A stretch of 13,785 nucleotides of DNA from JBDRGX01 sp043817485 [NCBI: bacterium] (GTDB lineage Bacteria > JBDRGX01): NCBI GenBank assembly GCA_043817485.1, contig JBDRGX010000054.1, positions 1-13,785 of the forward strand, read 5' to 3'. The first letter of the stretch is position 1, and each line of letters starts with the position of its first letter. The notes beneath the pieces are model-generated. The model did not search any database, was not told the DNA's origin, and worked only from the letters and a program-made list of their open reading frames with translations. Shown in pieces: positions 57 through 12,078 of this stretch. The position numbers and the translations under genes were made by a program.

Positions 57-101
57 GTGAAAATATGTTAATTTTTCAATCTAAAAAATTAACATTTTCA
101 C
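57..101. repeat. Imperfect inverted repeat at the end of the truncated POTRA gene
   Basis: The arm at 57-76 is the reverse complement of 83-101 apart from a two-base bulge, around a 6-base loop. It spans the stop codon of the minus-strand POTRA gene (76-78). There is no T-tract after it on the minus strand, so it is not a convincing intrinsic terminator. A near-palindrome this close to a sequence end can also be a fold-back assembly artefact; I cannot separate the two. Confidence 0.5.
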
Positions 102-708
102 GTAGTAAAAAATTAACATATTGACAAAGTAACAACAGTTTATAATTATATCCTAAAGTAATTTTTTTAGTATATTGTTCTATTTCGAATTTTTTTTCAG
201 TATTTTCTACTTCATATTCTTCTCCAATAGTATGAGATCCAAATATATCTATAATAAATCGAGTATCAAATAATTTTAAATCTTTATAATGAATGCTTTG
301 TATATTTAATCCTAATTTACAATCAATATTTTTAGCTTGTCCACAAAGATTATCTAATCCAATACTTGCATAAATAGGACCTCCTCCAAATCGCCATAAA
401 AAGCCTTCTTCTACTTCAATTAAAATTACAGCTTTATTTAATTCAGAACTAGGTAAAAGAAATACATTAACATCAAAAAAATAAAAAGTAGAAAATAATT
501 TTTGTTGTGTTTTTTTTATTTTTTGCTCTAATTCTTGTTTAGATAATTTATCCCCTATTTTAAAATCAAGAAAATGTAGAATTACCTTTTCTTGTGTATA
601 ATAATTTCCTTTAATTCGTATTTCTTTTATTATAAAATCATTTGCTATAATTTGTTTATTTATTAGCAAAAACAAAAAAAATATCAAAAATATTATTTTA
701 TTTTTCAT
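76..708 (-). CDS. POTRA-domain outer-membrane protein (Omp85/BamA type), C-terminally truncated
   Basis: The 210-residue product has a signal peptide (about residues 1-22, ending IIA before ND) followed by one POTRA domain at about 25-101, with the typical pattern IKEIRIKGN, FKIGDKLS, KLFSTFYFFDV and VILIEVEEG. POTRA domains bind client proteins or chaperones in the periplasm and precede a 16-strand outer-membrane barrel that inserts or exports proteins. Here residues 102-190 (GGGPIYASIGLDN onward) look like the first barrel strands, but a barrel needs roughly 300 more residues and the frame stops after a tandem 8-residue duplication. The 75 bases downstream show no convincing continuation in any frame. 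It starts with ATG 17 bp after the rhomboid gene, with a weak AAGAAG ribosome site, so the two are probably co-transcribed. I see it as a truncated Omp85 gene or one damaged at an assembly edge; a free-standing one-POTRA protein is less likely. Confidence 0.75.
   Translation of the reverse strand: MKNKIIFLIFFLFLLINKQIIANDFIIKEIRIKGNYYTQEKVILHFLDFKIGDKLSKQELEQKIKKTQQKLFSTFYFFDVNVFLLPSSELNKAVILIEVEEGFLWRFGGGPIYASIGLDNLCGQAKNIDCKLGLNIQSIHYKDLKLFDTRFIIDIFGSHTIGEEYEVENTEKKFEIEQYTKKITLGYNYKLLLLCQYVNFLLRENVNFLD
83..130. repeat. Two-copy 24-bp tandem repeat inside the POTRA gene's 3' end
   Basis: Positions 83-106 and 107-130 are two head-to-tail 24-bp units matching at about 20 of 24 bases; both begin AAAAAATTAACAT on the plus strand. 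Read on the minus strand they encode two 8-residue units, LCQYVNFL and LRENVNFL, directly before the stop. The same core also forms one arm of the inverted repeat at 57-101. A local duplication here fits with the abrupt loss of the barrel-coding sequence. Confidence 0.6.
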
Positions 709-4754: not shown

Positions 4755-5822
4755 TTATAATTCTATCATTTCTTTAGGTGATTTAGTTAAAATTTCTATT
4801 TTGTTTTTTCCTAAAAATACCATATCTTCTATTCTTATTCCACCCCATCCTGGGATATATATTCCTGGTTCTATTGTTACTACAGTATTTTCTTTTAATC
4901 TTTCATTATTTTGTTTGCTTAAATAAGGATTTTCATGAACATCTAAACCAATTCCATGTCCAAGCCCATGAATAAAATATTTTCCAAATCCTTGTTTATC
5001 AATAAAATTTCTTGCTAATAAATCTAATTTTCCACATTCTATATTTGGTTTTATTTTTTCTAATACTATTTTTTGAGCAGAAAGCACTATGTTATAAATT
5101 TTTTTATATTTTTCACTTGCTTTTCCTAAAAAAATAGTTCGAGTTATATCTGAATTATACGCTTTATAATTTACTCCAAAATCAAATAAAATCATTTCAT
5201 CTTTTTTTAATTTTTTATTTGTTGCAGTTGCATGAGGATATGCACAATTTTTTCCAAAAGCAATAATATAATCAAAAGGAATTTTATCTCCACCATTTTT
5301 TTTAATAAAATAATCTAATTCAATAGATACTTCAATTTCTTTTAAATCTGGCTTTATAAAATTAAGTAAATATTGAAATGCTTTATCTCCAATTTTTGCT
5401 GCTTTTTTTAATAATTTTATTTCATCATCATCTTTTACTTCTCTTATTTTTTCTATCAAATTATTTGAAGGAATAAATTTTATGGAATGTAATTGTTGAG
5501 ATAAGTTTTTATATTCTTGATAAGAAAAATAATTTTCTTCAAAATAAAGTTTTTTTATTTTGAATTTTTTAAATATATTTTTCAAAGAATCTGCTAAACT
5601 ATTTTTACATAAAATTATTTCAAAATTTTTTATTTTATTTTTAACTTCTTCATAATAACAACTATTAGTAAAAAAAAAGTTTTTTTCAGGAGTAATTAAA
5701 ATTTTTGCCCAATTTCCAGTAAATCCAGTTAAATACTGAATATTTTTTAAATTAGAAATAAGGAAATTTATATTTATAATTTGTTTTATTTTTTTAATTC
5801 TGTTTTGTAAATGTATTTTCAT
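4755..5822 (-). CDS. M24 family metallopeptidase (Xaa-Pro aminopeptidase/dipeptidase type)
   Basis: This cytoplasmic pita-bread-fold enzyme removes residues next to proline and uses two metal ions. Numbering here starts from an ATG three codons upstream (5831). All five metal ligands are visible: Asp217 (LFDFGVNY), Asp228 (NSDITRT), His292 (GLGHGIGLDVHE), Glu321 (TIEPGIY) and Glu335 (GIRIEDM). His200 (CAYPHATAT) and His299 are the usual substrate-side histidines. Residues 10-125 form the creatinase-like N-terminal domain (YLTGFTGNWA). I place the start at the ATG at 5822, because it overlaps the upstream stop as TAATG (translational coupling) and has GGAAA before it, whereas the ATG at 5831 has no ribosome site. 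PepQ, PepP and YpdF share the motifs; the roughly 355-residue length fits the short PepQ/YpdF-like group. There is no signal peptide, so it is a housekeeping enzyme lodged among exported proteins. Confidence 0.9.
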   Translation of the reverse strand: MKIHLQNRIKKIKQIININFLISNLKNIQYLTGFTGNWAKILITPEKNFFFTNSCYYEEVKNKIKNFEIILCKNSLADSLKNIFKKFKIKKLYFEENYFSYQEYKNLSQQLHSIKFIPSNNLIEKIREVKDDDEIKLLKKAAKIGDKAFQYLLNFIKPDLKEIEVSIELDYFIKKNGGDKIPFDYIIAFGKNCAYPHATATNKKLKKDEMILFDFGVNYKAYNSDITRTIFLGKASEKYKKIYNIVLSAQKIVLEKIKPNIECGKLDLLARNFIDKQGFGKYFIHGLGHGIGLDVHENPYLSKQNNERLKENTVVTIEPGIYIPGWGGIRIEDMVFLGKNKIEILTKSPKEMIEL

Positions 5823-6418
5823 TATTTCCATAAAACTACTTGTTTAATTGTTTTTTTAACAAAAGTTCCATCTGTAATTTGTAAAAGCACTAAATATCTA
5901 CCATTACAACAAGATTTATTAAAATCATCTGTTCCATTCCATATTTCTATATATTCTTCAAAAACTCCACAATATTTATTTTCAATTAAAGATTTTACTA
6001 ATTCTCCTAACATATTGTATATTTTTATAGTAATACGAGGTTTTCCTTTTTCACAATTAAGTTTATATTTAATTTGAAGTCCTGATTTATAAGAAGAAAA
6101 AGGATTAGGCACTAATTCTAATGTTTCAAAAGATAATAATTGTCTTGAGCCCAATAAAACAAATTCTGTAGTTCCAGTAATAGATAAAGAAATATTTTCT
6201 GCTATAATTTTATTACCAAATATTTGAGAATTTAATTTTTGATAACTTAAATCTCCACTTTTTTTTATTCCTACAAAAAGGTTTTCTTTATTTTTAATTT
6301 CATTTGGAATTACTATAGCAACTTTAATAAGCCCTTGATTAATAATAAAATTTTCTGTTCCTATTTTAAAATATTTAGAAGAAATAACAGTATATTTTTC
6401 CATTTTTTTTTTCTTCAT
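5822..6418 (-). CDS. FlgD-Ig-like C-terminal domain, probably the frameshifted end of the giant repeat protein
   Basis: The open frame has 198 codons, lacks a signal peptide and overlaps the upstream gene by 44 bp. Residues 100-198 are a typical FlgD-like immunoglobulin domain found at the ends of secreted proteins: LELVPNPFSS (101-109), ITIKIYNMLGELVKSL (129-144), WNGTDDFNKSCCNGRYLVLL (160-179) and a basic KKTIKQVVLWK end. Residues 7-95 continue smoothly from the last sensible residues of the upstream ORF. A domain of this type makes no sense in the cytoplasm, so I think it belongs to the 6375-9866 product, joined across the A10 tract. Separate translation cannot be excluded: its ATG at 6418 has AAAGGG about 9 bases before it. 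Its stop overlaps the ATG of the M24 peptidase. Confidence 0.7.
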   Translation of the reverse strand: MKKKKMEKYTVISSKYFKIGTENFIINQGLIKVAIVIPNEIKNKENLFVGIKKSGDLSYQKLNSQIFGNKIIAENISLSITGTTEFVLLGSRQLLSFETLELVPNPFSSYKSGLQIKYKLNCEKGKPRITIKIYNMLGELVKSLIENKYCGVFEEYIEIWNGTDDFNKSCCNGRYLVLLQITDGTFVKKTIKQVVLWK

Positions 6419-9400
6419 CTTTTAAATCCCTTTCTTGTAACCATATTCTTCCAGTTTTATCTTTAGCATCAATATATTGCGTATTAGATAATAATATTTC
6501 AAATTTATCATTGCCTAATTTTTTAATGGAATTTTCAGGAGATAAAAATTGAGATAAAACAGTTACTTTATAAGGAGAAGATTTAATTTTATTGAAATTA
6601 TCTGTTGCGATAACGGTTATTTCACCAATAAATCTAAAATCAAATTCATCATGATTAAAATAAAAATAATTTTCTTCATCAAAAGGATTTTGAGTTCTTC
6701 CAGAAATTTTTGGCTCATTAGACCAAGTAATTAAATTACTTTCCATTGTTTTTCCAGTTATTGTATCTATTGCTTCACAAATAAATTTAACTTTGGGATC
6801 AGTGCTTTTTATCATTCCATTATACATATTACTATCTCGAATATAAATTTTAAGTTCTTTAGATTCTGAAATAGTAATTTTTGTTTCAGTAATTTTTTGA
6901 TCTTCTACTTCTTTAAAATTAACTTTTGCTTTTAAAATTATTTCTCCTTTTTGATTTGCTTTTATTTTCCCAGTATAACTTTTTCCTGCAATTCCAGATA
7001 TCCAAGTAATTTGATTTAAAGCCACTGTACTTTCATTTCCTATTTCCCATTTTACTTCTATTTTACCCTCATTTATCATTTTTTCCATATCAATATTATT
7101 GCCTTGTTTATCTAAAGTTACTATTTCAAAATTACAAAAGGATTCTTTTCCTAAAATTGGAAAGGAAGGTGTAATTTCTACTTTATCAGCCATTGTTCCC
7201 ATAGAAATTGTATAAACATTACTTTGAAATTTTTTTATTTCAAATGAAAGCCCTGAACATTCAGCTTCTATTTGATAAAATATTTCTCCTTTTTGTACTT
7301 GATGTAATGATAAAGGTATTATAAAATTACAAAAGCCATCATTTTCTCTTACAATTATCGTTGAAAGAGTTTTCCAATCTGCATTTAATAATGTTTTCCA
7401 TTTTAAAGTTACTTCAAATTGTTTGTTAATAAATTTGTCAATTTTAATATTTATATCACCTTTTCCATATTTAACTGATGTATGTTTTAAAGGTAATAAA
7501 ATATTAAAATTAAAATCATTGGCATTTATTGCTTTTTCAAGTAATCCAGAAATATATCCTTCTTTATTTGCAGTAATGCTAATTTGATTTTGAGGAATTT
7601 TTTCAATTGAATAAAATCCATTTATAGCACTTAAACTACTTTTTTCAAATGATAAATTATTAGTTGCTACTTTTATTGTTGCATTAGATATTTCAGTAGT
7701 TCCATTTTCTGTAATTTTTCCAGATAAAGTATAAGAAGTATCAAATGGTGTTAAATAAAAATCTTTATCACTTATTGATTGATTTATAGATCTAAAATCT
7801 AATTCTTCTTTTAAACTCCAATAACCATCAGCAGAAATAATTATTTGATATAAATCTTTTTTTAAACCTAATTCATAAAAACCAATTGTGTTTGTAAATG
7901 TTTCTAAACTTTCATTTGTTTCTTTTGTAACTATAATTTTAGCAGAAGATATTCTTGTTTTGCTTTTAACATCTAAAATAAAACCTTTTAAAATTATATC
8001 TGCAGAAATAAGTTTAAAATTTAATATTTTTTCATCTTCTGTTTTTAACAAAATAGATTGAGATGTAGAAATATATCCATTAAAACTTGCTTCAATATTC
8101 CATAAAAGACCTTCTTCTGTAAATTCTAATAAAAATTCATATTTGCCTTCATTATTAGTTTTGGTAGAAAAAGTAGTACCTTTTTCATTAATTGCTTTTA
8201 CTAAAACATTTTCAAGTAATTGATCATTATTAGCATTTTTAATATTCCCTGAAACAATGGCTGCATTTTCATAAAGAATAAAATCTTTTTGTAAATTTTG
8301 TCCAAAAGATAAAGAAATTTTTTCAATAATTGTTTTAAACCCTGATTTGGAAATTTTAATAGTCCAATCTCGAATTTCAGTAATATTATCTGTTTGAAAA
8401 GGCAAGTCCATACAATACCAACCATATTCATCTGTAAAAGTTGTTTTTGTAATATTTTCTACATCAAGAGAAGTAAATTCAATTAAAGCTCCAACTATAT
8501 TTCCTCCACCAAAATTTTTTATTTTTCCCAAAAAAGTAGCAGTATTTCTTTTAAGATTTATTGCTTTTGATATATTTGTTCCAATGTTTTGTTGATTTAT
8601 TTCTATTATATCTTCATTGATTTGTTTATAACCAGTTTTCGTAACGGTAATTCGATATTTTCCTATGGGTAATTTAATATCTTTAATTTCACCTTTATCA
8701 TCAACAATTGTTTCAATAACTAATATTTCTCCAGGTATTTGATTCAATCTAATATAAGCTCGAGAAATTGGAGAAGCATTAGATATATCTTTTATATATA
8801 AATTAAGATTAGCAGTATTTATTTGATATTTAAAGCCAAAAATTTCACTACAAGAAGATTTTTTAGTATTTGTCTCATCTAAAGCCAAAACTTTCCATTT
8901 AAATTCATAATTAGAAAGTATTTTACTTGCATTTGTTAAAGTAATAGAAGGTTGAGTTGTAAAAGATTCCCATATTTTATTATAAACAGAACTTTCTCCT
9001 TCTGTTCCTCCAAGAAAAATATAAAGAATAAAATAATAATGAGTAGCTCCAGATACAGGATTCCATGTAAAATCAATTTTATCATCAGCATTATAACCAA
9101 TAATTGTATTATTTAAAGGAGAAAGTAATTGTGCTTGTTCTAAATTTATTGGGGAAAAATTTACCTTAAAATCTCTATACAAATTTATTCTAGGAGAAGT
9201 CATAACAATTGTATTATCATAATTATTTAAAACTACCCAGCTATATTTTCCTCCATGAAATAAAGGAGGTGTTTGTGTATTATTAAATGTTCCAGAAGGA
9301 TCTAAATCACCATAATTTATTGTTGATGATGAAGTAATAGCTTGCCATATTGGAGAAATGTTTTTTACTTTTATATTTTTTCCACTTTTATCTAAAGTTA

Positions 9401-9866
9401 TAGGCATATCAGAAACTATAATATGATAAAAAGGAACATTTTCAACTTTTGTCCATGAAAAAATTAAAGGTAATTGAGATAAAGTAATAGTAAATAAATC
9501 ATCGGGTTTATTCATTAAAGGAACTTGATTAGCATCAATACAAATTCTAAAAATAGTTGAAAAATTATTAGAATCTTTTTGTTTTATTCGAGCATAATAA
9601 ATTCCAGTTTGAAAATTTACATTATTAGGAATAAAAGTTATTTCTCCTTTTTGTGTTTGATTAAGAAAATTAGCACCTTCGAATTCTGGAACTCTTGAAT
9701 ATTCTAAAACACAAACATCTTCTGTTAATGCTTGCCATTTTATAATTACAGATTCATTTTCAGAAATTGGCAAAAAAGGTGTTTGTAATAAAGGAATTTC
9801 TGAATGAGCTAAATTTATTAAAAAAAGAAATATGCTTAATTTTTTTATAATTTGTTGAATAAACAT
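6375..9866 (-). CDS. Large secreted Fn3 / carboxypeptidase-regulatory-like repeat surface protein
   Basis: The 1163-residue product has a signal peptide (about 1-22, ending LAHS). Three Fn3-like domains follow at about 24-110, 112-230 and 240-345 (SVIIKWQALTEDVCVLEYS, PLIFSWTKVENVPFYHIIVS, KIDFTWNPVSGATHYYFILY). Five carboxypeptidase-regulatory-like (CarboxypepD_reg) domains lie at about 350-790, each with the pattern hhGxI then T.x.G.Y and a closing GY or GF (YRITVTKTGYKQ, WTIKISKSGFKT, NIEASFNGYIS, QIIISADGYWS, ISITANKEGYIS). Residues 880-1130 look like Ig-like domains. It probably acts at the cell surface in adhesion, matrix or carbohydrate contact; no catalytic domain is visible. The start is supported by AAGGAG 8 bases before ATG. 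The last 11 or so residues (after EEKK, GKIYCYFF) are out-of-frame junk after an A10 run, and the true C-terminus is most likely the FlgD-like domain at 5822-6418, giving about 1350 residues. It heads the tightly packed minus-strand cluster down to wtpA. Confidence 0.85.
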   Translation of the reverse strand: MFIQQIIKKLSIFLFLINLAHSEIPLLQTPFLPISENESVIIKWQALTEDVCVLEYSRVPEFEGANFLNQTQKGEITFIPNNVNFQTGIYYARIKQKDSNNFSTIFRICIDANQVPLMNKPDDLFTITLSQLPLIFSWTKVENVPFYHIIVSDMPITLDKSGKNIKVKNISPIWQAITSSSTINYGDLDPSGTFNNTQTPPLFHGGKYSWVVLNNYDNTIVMTSPRINLYRDFKVNFSPINLEQAQLLSPLNNTIIGYNADDKIDFTWNPVSGATHYYFILYIFLGGTEGESSVYNKIWESFTTQPSITLTNASKILSNYEFKWKVLALDETNTKKSSCSEIFGFKYQINTANLNLYIKDISNASPISRAYIRLNQIPGEILVIETIVDDKGEIKDIKLPIGKYRITVTKTGYKQINEDIIEINQQNIGTNISKAINLKRNTATFLGKIKNFGGGNIVGALIEFTSLDVENITKTTFTDEYGWYCMDLPFQTDNITEIRDWTIKISKSGFKTIIEKISLSFGQNLQKDFILYENAAIVSGNIKNANNDQLLENVLVKAINEKGTTFSTKTNNEGKYEFLLEFTEEGLLWNIEASFNGYISTSQSILLKTEDEKILNFKLISADIILKGFILDVKSKTRISSAKIIVTKETNESLETFTNTIGFYELGLKKDLYQIIISADGYWSLKEELDFRSINQSISDKDFYLTPFDTSYTLSGKITENGTTEISNATIKVATNNLSFEKSSLSAINGFYSIEKIPQNQISITANKEGYISGLLEKAINANDFNFNILLPLKHTSVKYGKGDINIKIDKFINKQFEVTLKWKTLLNADWKTLSTIIVRENDGFCNFIIPLSLHQVQKGEIFYQIEAECSGLSFEIKKFQSNVYTISMGTMADKVEITPSFPILGKESFCNFEIVTLDKQGNNIDMEKMINEGKIEVKWEIGNESTVALNQITWISGIAGKSYTGKIKANQKGEIILKAKVNFKEVEDQKITETKITISESKELKIYIRDSNMYNGMIKSTDPKVKFICEAIDTITGKTMESNLITWSNEPKISGRTQNPFDEENYFYFNHDEFDFRFIGEITVIATDNFNKIKSSPYKVTVLSQFLSPENSIKKLGNDKFEILLSNTQYIDAKDKTGRIWLQERDLKDEEKKNGKIYCYFF
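6403..6412 (-). other. A10 homopolymer, frameshift or slippage site
   Basis: The minus strand reads GATGAAG, ten A residues, TGGAAAAATATAC. With ten As the repeat-protein frame gives DEEKKNGKIYCYFF and stops. With nine (or twelve) it runs on through MEKYTVISSKYFKIG into the FlgD-like domain. This could be RNA-polymerase slippage, ribosomal +1 frameshifting, a phase-variable tract, a genuine mutation or a sequencing error. Confidence 0.7.
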
Positions 9867-10007
9867 TGAATAATCTCCTTTTTTGAATAAACTTGTTAAA
9901 GTTTTAAAAAATACAAAAATATTTAAAATTGTGTTATAAATATTTTTTCAAATCATTTACCAATAAAGATATTGTTTTTTCAATTTGAATTTTCTCTTAC
10001 AATTGTC

Positions 10008-10238
10008 TTATTTTGCATCATAGAGAACCCTTCCTTCTTCAAAAATACTCTTTACAAAAGAATCGCCCAAGTTTAATTTCTGCTCTATTTCCTCAGATTT
10101 GTAGACAACGAAGTCAGTTGCTAACCTATATTTGATCAGCCTATCCAATTGACGAATCCTATCAACACCAAGAAAAATGTTATTTATGGTTAGGCTAAAC
10201 GAAGTTGCAAAGCAATTTAGGTGAATATAGCGAATCAT
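10008..10238 (-). pseudogene. C-terminal remnant of an MNT-type nucleotidyltransferase
   Basis: About the last 48 residues of this 76-codon frame (LDRLIKYRLATDFVVYKSEE, then LNLGDSFVKSIFEEGRVLYDAK) resemble the C-terminal end of small minimal nucleotidyltransferases, which typically ends with a DxxV segment, a P/SEE-E helix and F...I.EEG.VLY. The catalytic part (GSxxxGxxxxxSDxD) is absent, and only 82 bp separate this frame from the AIPR stop, so the N-terminal part is lost. The first 25 residues look unrelated, and the ATG has no ribosome site. MNT proteins are usually paired with HEPN partners as a toxin-antitoxin module. G+C is higher than in the flanking host genes, as in the AIPR gene. 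I see a decayed fragment, not a working gene; the family assignment is by pattern memory and moderately sure. Confidence 0.5.
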
Positions 10239-10320: not shown

Positions 10321-12078
10321 TTAATCAGCTTCCCATCTATATTCAAAATCTTCGTTTGCTAATGTTAATGTTTGTTTTAGTCGTTTGCTAATGTCTTGTC
10401 CACCAGGAATCATTGGAAGCATACTAAAATAGTTGCGAATTGCAAAATTTATCCCCGCAAGACAAGCTTTAGTTTTAATCCAATTAGAAGGGCTAAATAT
10501 TTTCCCTTGTGGTTGAGCTTCATTAGCAGCAGCTTCTAATGCCATATTGACACTACTTCCACTAATGCTAATTATTTCAGTTACCATTCCATCTTGTTGG
10601 GCTTTTTCTAAACAACGACTCGGATTTGGAACTCTGTCTGATTCATTATTTGAAATTGCAAAGCACATTGATATAGCATAAAGATGATGATATGGCGCGT
10701 ACGCTTTCATTGCAAGCAATGTTTCATTCAATCCGAGAGGATTTTGGTCAGTCCAACTTTTTAGAAGCTCTTTCGTCCAAAAATTAAGTGCGTGAGCGTT
10801 CTCTGGTTTATATTCCCGCTTAAAAAGTTGCTCAAAATATTTATCAAAAATTTTTGCTTCACTATATGAAATATTAGGTCTTTTAGAGTGCCAAGCAATT
10901 AAATATTTGCCAAGGTCGGAAAAGTCTAACACATAATTTTTGTCTTTGTCAGCAGGAGCTTGCTCGCCCCGTTTTGTAATGAAGTAACCGCTGGGATACT
11001 TTTGTTCAAAGAGTTTCTTTAAGTTCAAAACTCTTTTATCATTGCTTCTTAAATCACGGGGCTTGACAGCACTTTGAGAGTTTGTGTTAATACTTATTCT
11101 GTCTGCTCTTTCTCTTTGTGGAATTTCGTAAAACCTAAATAAAACAAAAGTGTCGTCTAATGTTTTTATTTTTTCACTACAATTTATAATAGTATTTAAC
11201 GATTGACAACCGTTCACAACGCTTAACCCATTAAGTTTTAATTTGTGGTCTTGTAATTCAAGTTTATTGCAAATGGCAGTAATACCATTGTGAAAAAAGA
11301 AAAAGTCACGATGTTTGTCGCTGTATATTGTATTTTTTATCCCCTTATTTACTGCATTATTTAAACCCAAACTTTGTCTAACATTTTTTTGGAATAATGT
11401 TCCGTCCTTTATGCCAGGAATGTTAATACATTCACTTAAAGGAATTGCAGCAACAATGACTTGCGTTCCCGCTATATTAAGAGGTAGAAAATGGCTGTTA
11501 GATAAATCTATTGTATGTTTAATTGATGGATTTTCTCTTTCCAGTGCCAAATCATATCTTCTGTTTAACTCGTCTTTATCAATGACAGTTATTGATGATG
11601 GAAAATCTTCATTTTCAGCAAGGTCAGCTAATTGTTTTTGAAATGTTGCAAGGTCATTGTTTGCAGATTCTGTTAGAGTAGAAGTTGTAATCAATTCAAA
11701 AGCAACTTCATAATCGTCCTCAAGTGCTTTCGCAACTTCTGATAATTTCCTTTTCAATTTTATATTTCCAACCTCCTGTAATCTTACTATATCTCGTAAT
11801 TGCAACCAAGAGGATAAAACTTCTCTCAAGGGTTCTGCGTCAACTGAAGAACTCCCAATAAACTTTCCTTGAATTGTAAAAATAGTTTGCTTATCATCAT
11901 CAATTACGATAGCGTCAATTTGTTTGTCATCCGCACCGTCTGTGATGTCGTCTTTGGTTTCATTCATACTTCTTAAATGAATGTTCATTAAATACCAAGC
12001 AACAAATTTTTGTCCGTCATTTGAAAAATTTTGCTGGTAGTAATCTTGTTTGATTTCTTCTTTTATCTGTTTATACAT
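10321..12078 (-). CDS. AIPR-family (abortive infection phage resistance) protein with PD-(D/E)xK-like N-terminus
   Basis: The 585-residue product carries the AIPR-domain signature in order: DGTLFQKNVRQSLG then VNKGI (225-247), FFFHNGITAICNKL (260-273), LSVVNGCQSLNTI (285-297), VLFRFYEIP (312-320) and ISINTNSQSAVKPRDLRSND (328-347). AIPR-domain proteins are linked to phage defence by abortive infection. The N-terminal part reads YLMNIHL, ITDGADDKQIDAIVID, IFTIQGKF; Asp55 with Gln70 and Lys72 gives a D-x14-QxK pattern like that of restriction-type nucleases, so I infer a nuclease or nuclease-like domain. It is cytoplasmic, with no signal or membrane segment. ATG is preceded by AAAAGGA about 9 bases upstream, and a good promoter lies 102 bp before it. 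It appears complete and intact. Its G+C content is visibly higher than that of its neighbours, which indicates transfer. No methylase or other restriction subunit accompanies it. Confidence 0.85.
   Translation of the reverse strand: MYKQIKEEIKQDYYQQNFSNDGQKFVAWYLMNIHLRSMNETKDDITDGADDKQIDAIVIDDDKQTIFTIQGKFIGSSSVDAEPLREVLSSWLQLRDIVRLQEVGNIKLKRKLSEVAKALEDDYEVAFELITTSTLTESANNDLATFQKQLADLAENEDFPSSITVIDKDELNRRYDLALERENPSIKHTIDLSNSHFLPLNIAGTQVIVAAIPLSECINIPGIKDGTLFQKNVRQSLGLNNAVNKGIKNTIYSDKHRDFFFFHNGITAICNKLELQDHKLKLNGLSVVNGCQSLNTIINCSEKIKTLDDTFVLFRFYEIPQRERADRISINTNSQSAVKPRDLRSNDKRVLNLKKLFEQKYPSGYFITKRGEQAPADKDKNYVLDFSDLGKYLIAWHSKRPNISYSEAKIFDKYFEQLFKREYKPENAHALNFWTKELLKSWTDQNPLGLNETLLAMKAYAPYHHLYAISMCFAISNNESDRVPNPSRCLEKAQQDGMVTEIISISGSSVNMALEAAANEAQPQGKIFSPSNWIKTKACLAGINFAIRNYFSMLPMIPGGQDISKRLKQTLTLANEDFEYRWEAD

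Follow-up and report, generated by a model that had tools for sequence, protein, structure and literature searches.

A run of ten adenines divides what is most likely a single gene for a large surface protein in an AT-rich bacterium, probably by accident

Two overlapping reading frames meet at a run of ten adenines

The stretch of DNA analysed here, called the window in the following, comprises 13,785 nucleotides and contains two overlapping reading frames that, judging from sequence comparison, most likely belong to one gene. Its product would be a surface protein, apparently exported and about 1347 residues long, with carboxypeptidase-regulatory domains and a FlgD/T9SS-tail-like end. The homologues described below give good support to the view that the two frames together encode one protein. 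The frames part at a run of ten adenines, the length of which is probably accidental and due either to an error in consensus or assembly or to a mutation that is recent and possibly confined to a strain. The argument builds on the following features:

6375-9866, minus strand: N-terminal frame of 1163 codons with an apparent signal peptide, carboxypeptidase-regulatory domains, the first part of a conserved stretch and 8 nonsense residues
5822-6418, minus strand: C-terminal frame of 198 codons with the rest of the conserved stretch and a FlgD/T9SS-tail-like terminal domain; its start lacks a signal peptide
6403-6412, minus strand: A10 run at the frame break (T10 on the plus strand)
approx. 6155-6554, minus strand: conserved stretch that precedes the FlgD-like end and contains the break (from the alignment of the joined protein with 14 homologues; boundaries by eye)
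5825-6136, minus strand: FlgD-Ig-like/T9SS-tail-like domain with PNPFS, WNG, NGRY and a final K (boundaries by eye)
9875-9880, minus strand: Shine-Dalgarno-like AAGGAG before the ATG of the first frame at 9866 (by eye)
4755-5831, minus strand: downstream gene for an M24 metallopeptidase, the start of which overlaps the end of the second frame

The two frames overlap by 44 bases, and the A10 run lies inside this overlap. The first frame reaches its stop 8 residues beyond the last codon that touches the run, while a stop codon of the second frame is found at 6422-6424, just upstream of the run. As these stops bound both frames, the reading frame must change within about 50 bases, and the A run is the only long run there. 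It is also the sole run of ten within any listed gene of the window, the second one being intergenic (2861-2870). The second frame is free of stops over its 198 codons and, apart from the one break, none occurs in about 1350 codons. The coordinates and counts given in the original prediction, and the nonsense tail of eight residues after the A run, all proved correct. The domains it had proposed held in part: the N-terminus of the first frame resembles a signal peptide by eye and a Pfam search returned three CarboxypepD_reg and two CarbopepD_reg_2 stretches, possibly overlapping, and no Fn3 domain was found in this frame at E<=0.01. The start of the M24 peptidase gene and the end of the second frame share ten bases (5822-5831, minus strand), which suggests coupled translation of the two.

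Homologues encode a single unbroken protein

The first frame was searched in 1,420 counted genomes (overlaps included), starting from the loci that a genome scan with the M24 peptidase had yielded, and the region around each homologue was then examined. With E<=1e-10 as the threshold, homologues were present in 38 genomes, with homology covering residues about 22-778. Twenty-nine of these homologues have a complete C-terminus, and every one of them ends in a counterpart of the second frame that is read in frame with the rest of the protein. The remaining nine of the 38 are cut by contig ends; at L026, one of the nine, the second part can still be seen to begin in frame. None of the 38 is split. 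The final lysine and NGRY are present in 29 of 29 complete homologues and a PNPFS-type motif in 25 of them. Identity to the window protein is about 23-31%, with none closer than about 31%, so that the absence of the frameshift from all 29 complete homologues is an observation on distant relatives. Seven of the 13 matching genomes of one search (G058, G061, G068, G081, G144, G149 and G184) were left out of the homologue count; they matched the middle domains only (query 372-814, E 1e-7 to 4e-4), and for one of them (locus L024 of G149) no second-frame match was listed in its region.

When the last 420 residues of the joined protein were aligned with 14 of the 16 homologues then in hand (12 with a complete C-terminus, two cut), the ten residues on either side of the break were free of gaps. 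A C-terminal profile was built from 23 homologues, with the window excluded; against it, the joined protein scored 129.0 bits, the second frame 116.9 and the first frame 5.6, with the first frame covering the model up to position 108 and the second frame covering it from position 152. Joining gains about 6.5 bits over the sum of both frames, a modest gain because conservation is weak on the side of the break that belongs to the first frame, and the case for one protein therefore rests on the census. It had been predicted that the frames joined at the A run would give a seamless protein, and this agrees with both the fusion in every complete homologue and the gap-free alignment; two separate, individually complete genes in relatives, named beforehand as the contrary outcome, were looked for and not encountered among relatives that are 23-31% identical. 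An arrangement as two separate genes was rejected, as none of the 38 homologues is split, although by eye the second frame has an ATG next to the run that could serve as a start, with a weak AAAGGG before it. Eleven columns are invariant over 15 rows, consisting of 14 of the 29 complete homologues and the second frame, and as these residues are kept and no stop occurs in 198 codons, decay is absent or recent.

In the alignment with the 14 homologues the break falls inside a conserved beta-rich stretch that ends before the PNPFS of the FlgD-like domain and that in the homologues reads roughly GFSLxIPAxA...RITL...GxIYKLTxGFxF...LTLPLP...IGxW...W..IGG...FSEYAV. Such a position suggests that the break would cut one domain in two and that the product of the first frame alone would end in part of a domain followed by eight foreign residues. 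A single-sequence structure model of the second frame, of low quality as a whole (mean pLDDT 53.6), has strands at residues 31-100 in a block of moderate confidence (pLDDT 69-87); on this model a domain border may lie near the break, which slightly raises the standing of a functional switch, discussed below, and slightly lowers that of an accident.

For annotation, the locus calls for caution: in a genome of 22% G+C, two 'genes', one of them an apparent sorting-like domain without a signal peptide, are most likely one protein.

Base composition accounts for nine adenines

The G+C content of the window is about 22% outside one gene, and lysine is encoded by AAA in 343 of 350 cases and glutamate by GAA in 214 of 222. 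Written in the window's codons, Glu-Lys-Lys-Met yields nine As with a probability of about 0.93, and nine-base runs of A or T are also present in three other, intact genes of the window. At the equivalent site at most six As were found in the 14 homologues checked (of 16 then in hand), two of which have about 31% G+C. Since nine As are expected from the codons and homologues have no more than six, the run appears to be a by-product of base composition and not a conserved element. Ten As are more than the coding sequence requires: in 2000 codon resamplings, based on the window's other coding sequence with the break and the AIPR gene left out, A runs of ten never arose, and for T the expected number of such runs was 1.19 and the observed number zero.

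The explanation that we consider likely starts from this composition. At about 22% G+C, Glu-Lys-Lys-Met would be encoded as a run of nine As, such a run would be a hot spot at which DNA polymerase slips and consensus sequences go wrong, and the ten As in the record would reflect one such slip, either as a consensus or assembly error or as a recent mutation. AT-rich genomes are known to contain indels in poly-A tracts (PMC3017870). We infer that the difference in length is accidental, an explanation that covers a sequencing error as well as a real indel. The lack of the usual neighbour genes in the window (see below) fits real decay equally well as error, and a true ten-A allele has to be reckoned with.

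Slippage, decay and switching as alternatives

A real, fixed frameshift could be tolerated if RNA polymerase slipped in the A run and thereby returned a share of the transcripts to the correct frame, a 'pseudo-pseudogene' as in Buchnera and Blochmannia. The run of ten As at the break and the intactness of the rest of both frames speak for such a rescue, and precedents are available: a review puts the share of corrected transcripts at long poly-A runs in insect endosymbionts at 12-50% (PMC5009743), Blochmannia genes of this kind are annotated as intact (PMC3017870), and Baranov and colleagues report frameshifted genes in which a mutation extended the A run to nine, a length prone to slippage (PMC1088944). 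In Buchnera, deletions of single bases are also seen in runs and become more frequent with run length; however, transcription slips in runs are mostly insertions (homopolymeric tracts held 151 of 157 insertions but 16 of 57 deletions), and frame-restoring cases were not observed in that study (PMC5574713). In the window, one inserted base leads into the third frame, which closes 13 residues beyond the run, and no split homologue exists among the 38, though none of them is close. We therefore regard rescue by slippage as unlikely. Minus-one ribosomal frameshifting at the run was likewise considered as a route for joining the frames and rejected, as it leads into the third frame, which stops soon. 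Baranov and colleagues further state that A/T runs of nine bases or more often show signs of being selected against and that genomes with frequent, not under-represented nine-base runs were set aside as unlikely to slip (PMC1088944). The locus resembles the poly-A/poly-T frameshifted genes of Blochmannia and Buchnera (PMC3017870; PMC5009743) in its AT-rich genome, its otherwise intact gene, its long A run and its unbroken homologues, but differs from them in that the frameshift is putative, the homologues are distant and the gene encodes a large, apparently exported protein. With the nine-A slippage genes of IS elements, dnaX and mxiE it has in common an A/T run of at least nine in coding sequence with a second frame behind it; those genes, however, make use of slippage (PMC1088944), and in the relatives of the window's gene the product is single and unbroken. 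If the allele with ten As were true, another lineage would be added to the slippage cases of insect endosymbionts.

The surface protein could also be an early-stage pseudogene that is being lost together with its partner genes, and the two barrel-like genes that often flank the homologues are indeed absent from the window (best profile matches E 0.17 and 1.9), while an AIPR/AbiU-like gene of higher G+C stands upstream (region 33-36% versus about 22%). The partner genes may lie elsewhere in the genome, however, and about 1350 codons that are stop-free apart from the one break, together with the presence of the residues invariant in homologues, make early decay quite improbable. Programmed or phase-variable expression, in which the run would switch between, or set the dose of, forms of a surface protein that have or lack the C-terminal sorting-like domain, is suggested by the surface-type protein, the homopolymer in frame and the sorting-like domain downstream of it, and the strands modelled in the second frame (see above) would allow a domain border close to the break. 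We nevertheless hold it to be very improbable that the run is a genuine switch or dosage valve of a very AT-rich bacterium, in which slips would decide on the terminal sorting-like domain and hence on whether the surface protein is displayed on the outside. Nine As need no selection here, and no published match appeared among the titles and abstract beginnings listed. In the original prediction it was suggested that slippage or phase variation may give the cell two forms of the protein; this idea is disfavoured because the run is not conserved in the 14 homologues checked, because by alignment the break lies within a conserved stretch and because a single-base insertion, the commonest slip of RNA polymerase in such runs, leads into the third frame.

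The C-terminal domain resembles FlgD and T9SS tails

The terminal domain had been predicted to be FlgD-like, which holds as a resemblance, although FlgD_ig (PF13860) is not listed even at E<=1 for the window's own second frame. The same model exceeds its gathering cut-off in four of four homologues scanned. With a 15-row profile of 14 homologues and the window, structures of FlgD came first (3c12, E 4.5e-4) and PorU was retrieved at E 0.023. The second frame stays below the cut-offs of TIGR04183 (22.2 versus 23 bits), CHU_C (PF13585; 21.6 versus 27 bits) and Por_Secre_tail. Shared with the FlgD Ig-like domain (PF13860) and with T9SS tails (TIGR04183, CHU_C PF13585) are the motifs PNPFS, W.G and NGRY, the C-terminal place, a signal-peptide-like N-terminus on the same ancestral protein and barrel-like genes beside homologues. 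The domain differs from these families in that it falls under the curated cut-offs and in that FlgD structures outrank PorU in the 14-homologue profile. 'FlgD/T9SS-tail-like' is a fair term for a resemblance at the level of sequence, short of family membership.

Relationships of the window

A tree was calculated from 28 of the 31 homologues then found, the other three being omitted with matches spanning <600 query residues. The window appears on a long branch (2.68 changes per column), has no supported kin and is placed unsurely. The genome scan with the M24 peptidase led to three distant loci with 27-30% identity. A class-III aminotransferase encoded in the window had its best match, among 290 genomes, in G120 (59% identity); the first frame found no match among the 6 genomes of G120's phylum and the 5 of G140's. 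No relative came up in the viral contigs searched.

Barrel-like genes recur beside the homologues

By homology, large proteins of this kind form a family with members in several bacterial groups. In 28 of 38 loci, by a distance rule, the gene directly upstream of the surface-protein homologue encodes a protein of about 480-590 residues (truncated in some cases). Three further loci (L020, L068 and L070) also have this upstream partner, with more overlap since frames were read from stop to stop, and in five without it (L026, L067, L071, L075 and L092) a contig edge is close upstream. At L063 (G453) the partner is located downstream instead, with nothing in 4.1 kb upstream (L078), and at L093 there is room upstream and no partner. 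A second protein of about 310-340 residues is encoded directly downstream in 22 of 29 loci by the same kind of rule; it is also present, with more overlap, at L070 and L073, whereas L017 and L072 have under 330 bases of sequence downstream and L021, L066 and L068 have room there and no match to it. Sub-threshold matches to the FadL type (Toluene_X) were obtained for two of four upstream and three of four downstream proteins scanned. Two loci illustrate the arrangement:

L022, 1804-3237 and 8720-9658: partner genes flanking the homologue
L088, 2197-3918 and 12437-13423: partner genes flanking the homologue

Profiles for the neighbours were built from 14 upstream and 15 downstream rows of the same loci, which match them by construction; in the window neither barrel-like partner was detected by these profiles, with the best E values given above. 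The surface protein and its two barrel-like neighbours may represent a recurrent export module of several bacterial groups, in which the former would presumably act as T9SS-like cargo and the latter as PorV-like shuttles. The family revealed by the homologue search, with its recurrent barrel-like neighbours, is worth a closer look.

Other genes in the window

Three further sites on the minus strand drew attention, two of which are genes or frames:

10321-12078, minus strand: AIPR-family gene (AbiU in PADLOC, E 4.3e-34), a stretch of 33-36% G+C in a window of 22% G+C
76-708, minus strand: BamA/POTRA-like frame of 210 codons that stops where the barrel should continue

The AIPR/AbiU-like gene is probably an acquired defence gene, and it occupies the upstream position that in homologues belongs to the partner gene. 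The third site, at 10011-10163 (minus strand), is a short open stretch; to its likeness, by eye, to the end of a nucleotidyltransferase no Pfam hit at E<=1 corresponded. In the 75 bases remaining beyond the BamA/POTRA-like frame, stops occur in all three frames, and this frame may be another broken or unusually short gene.
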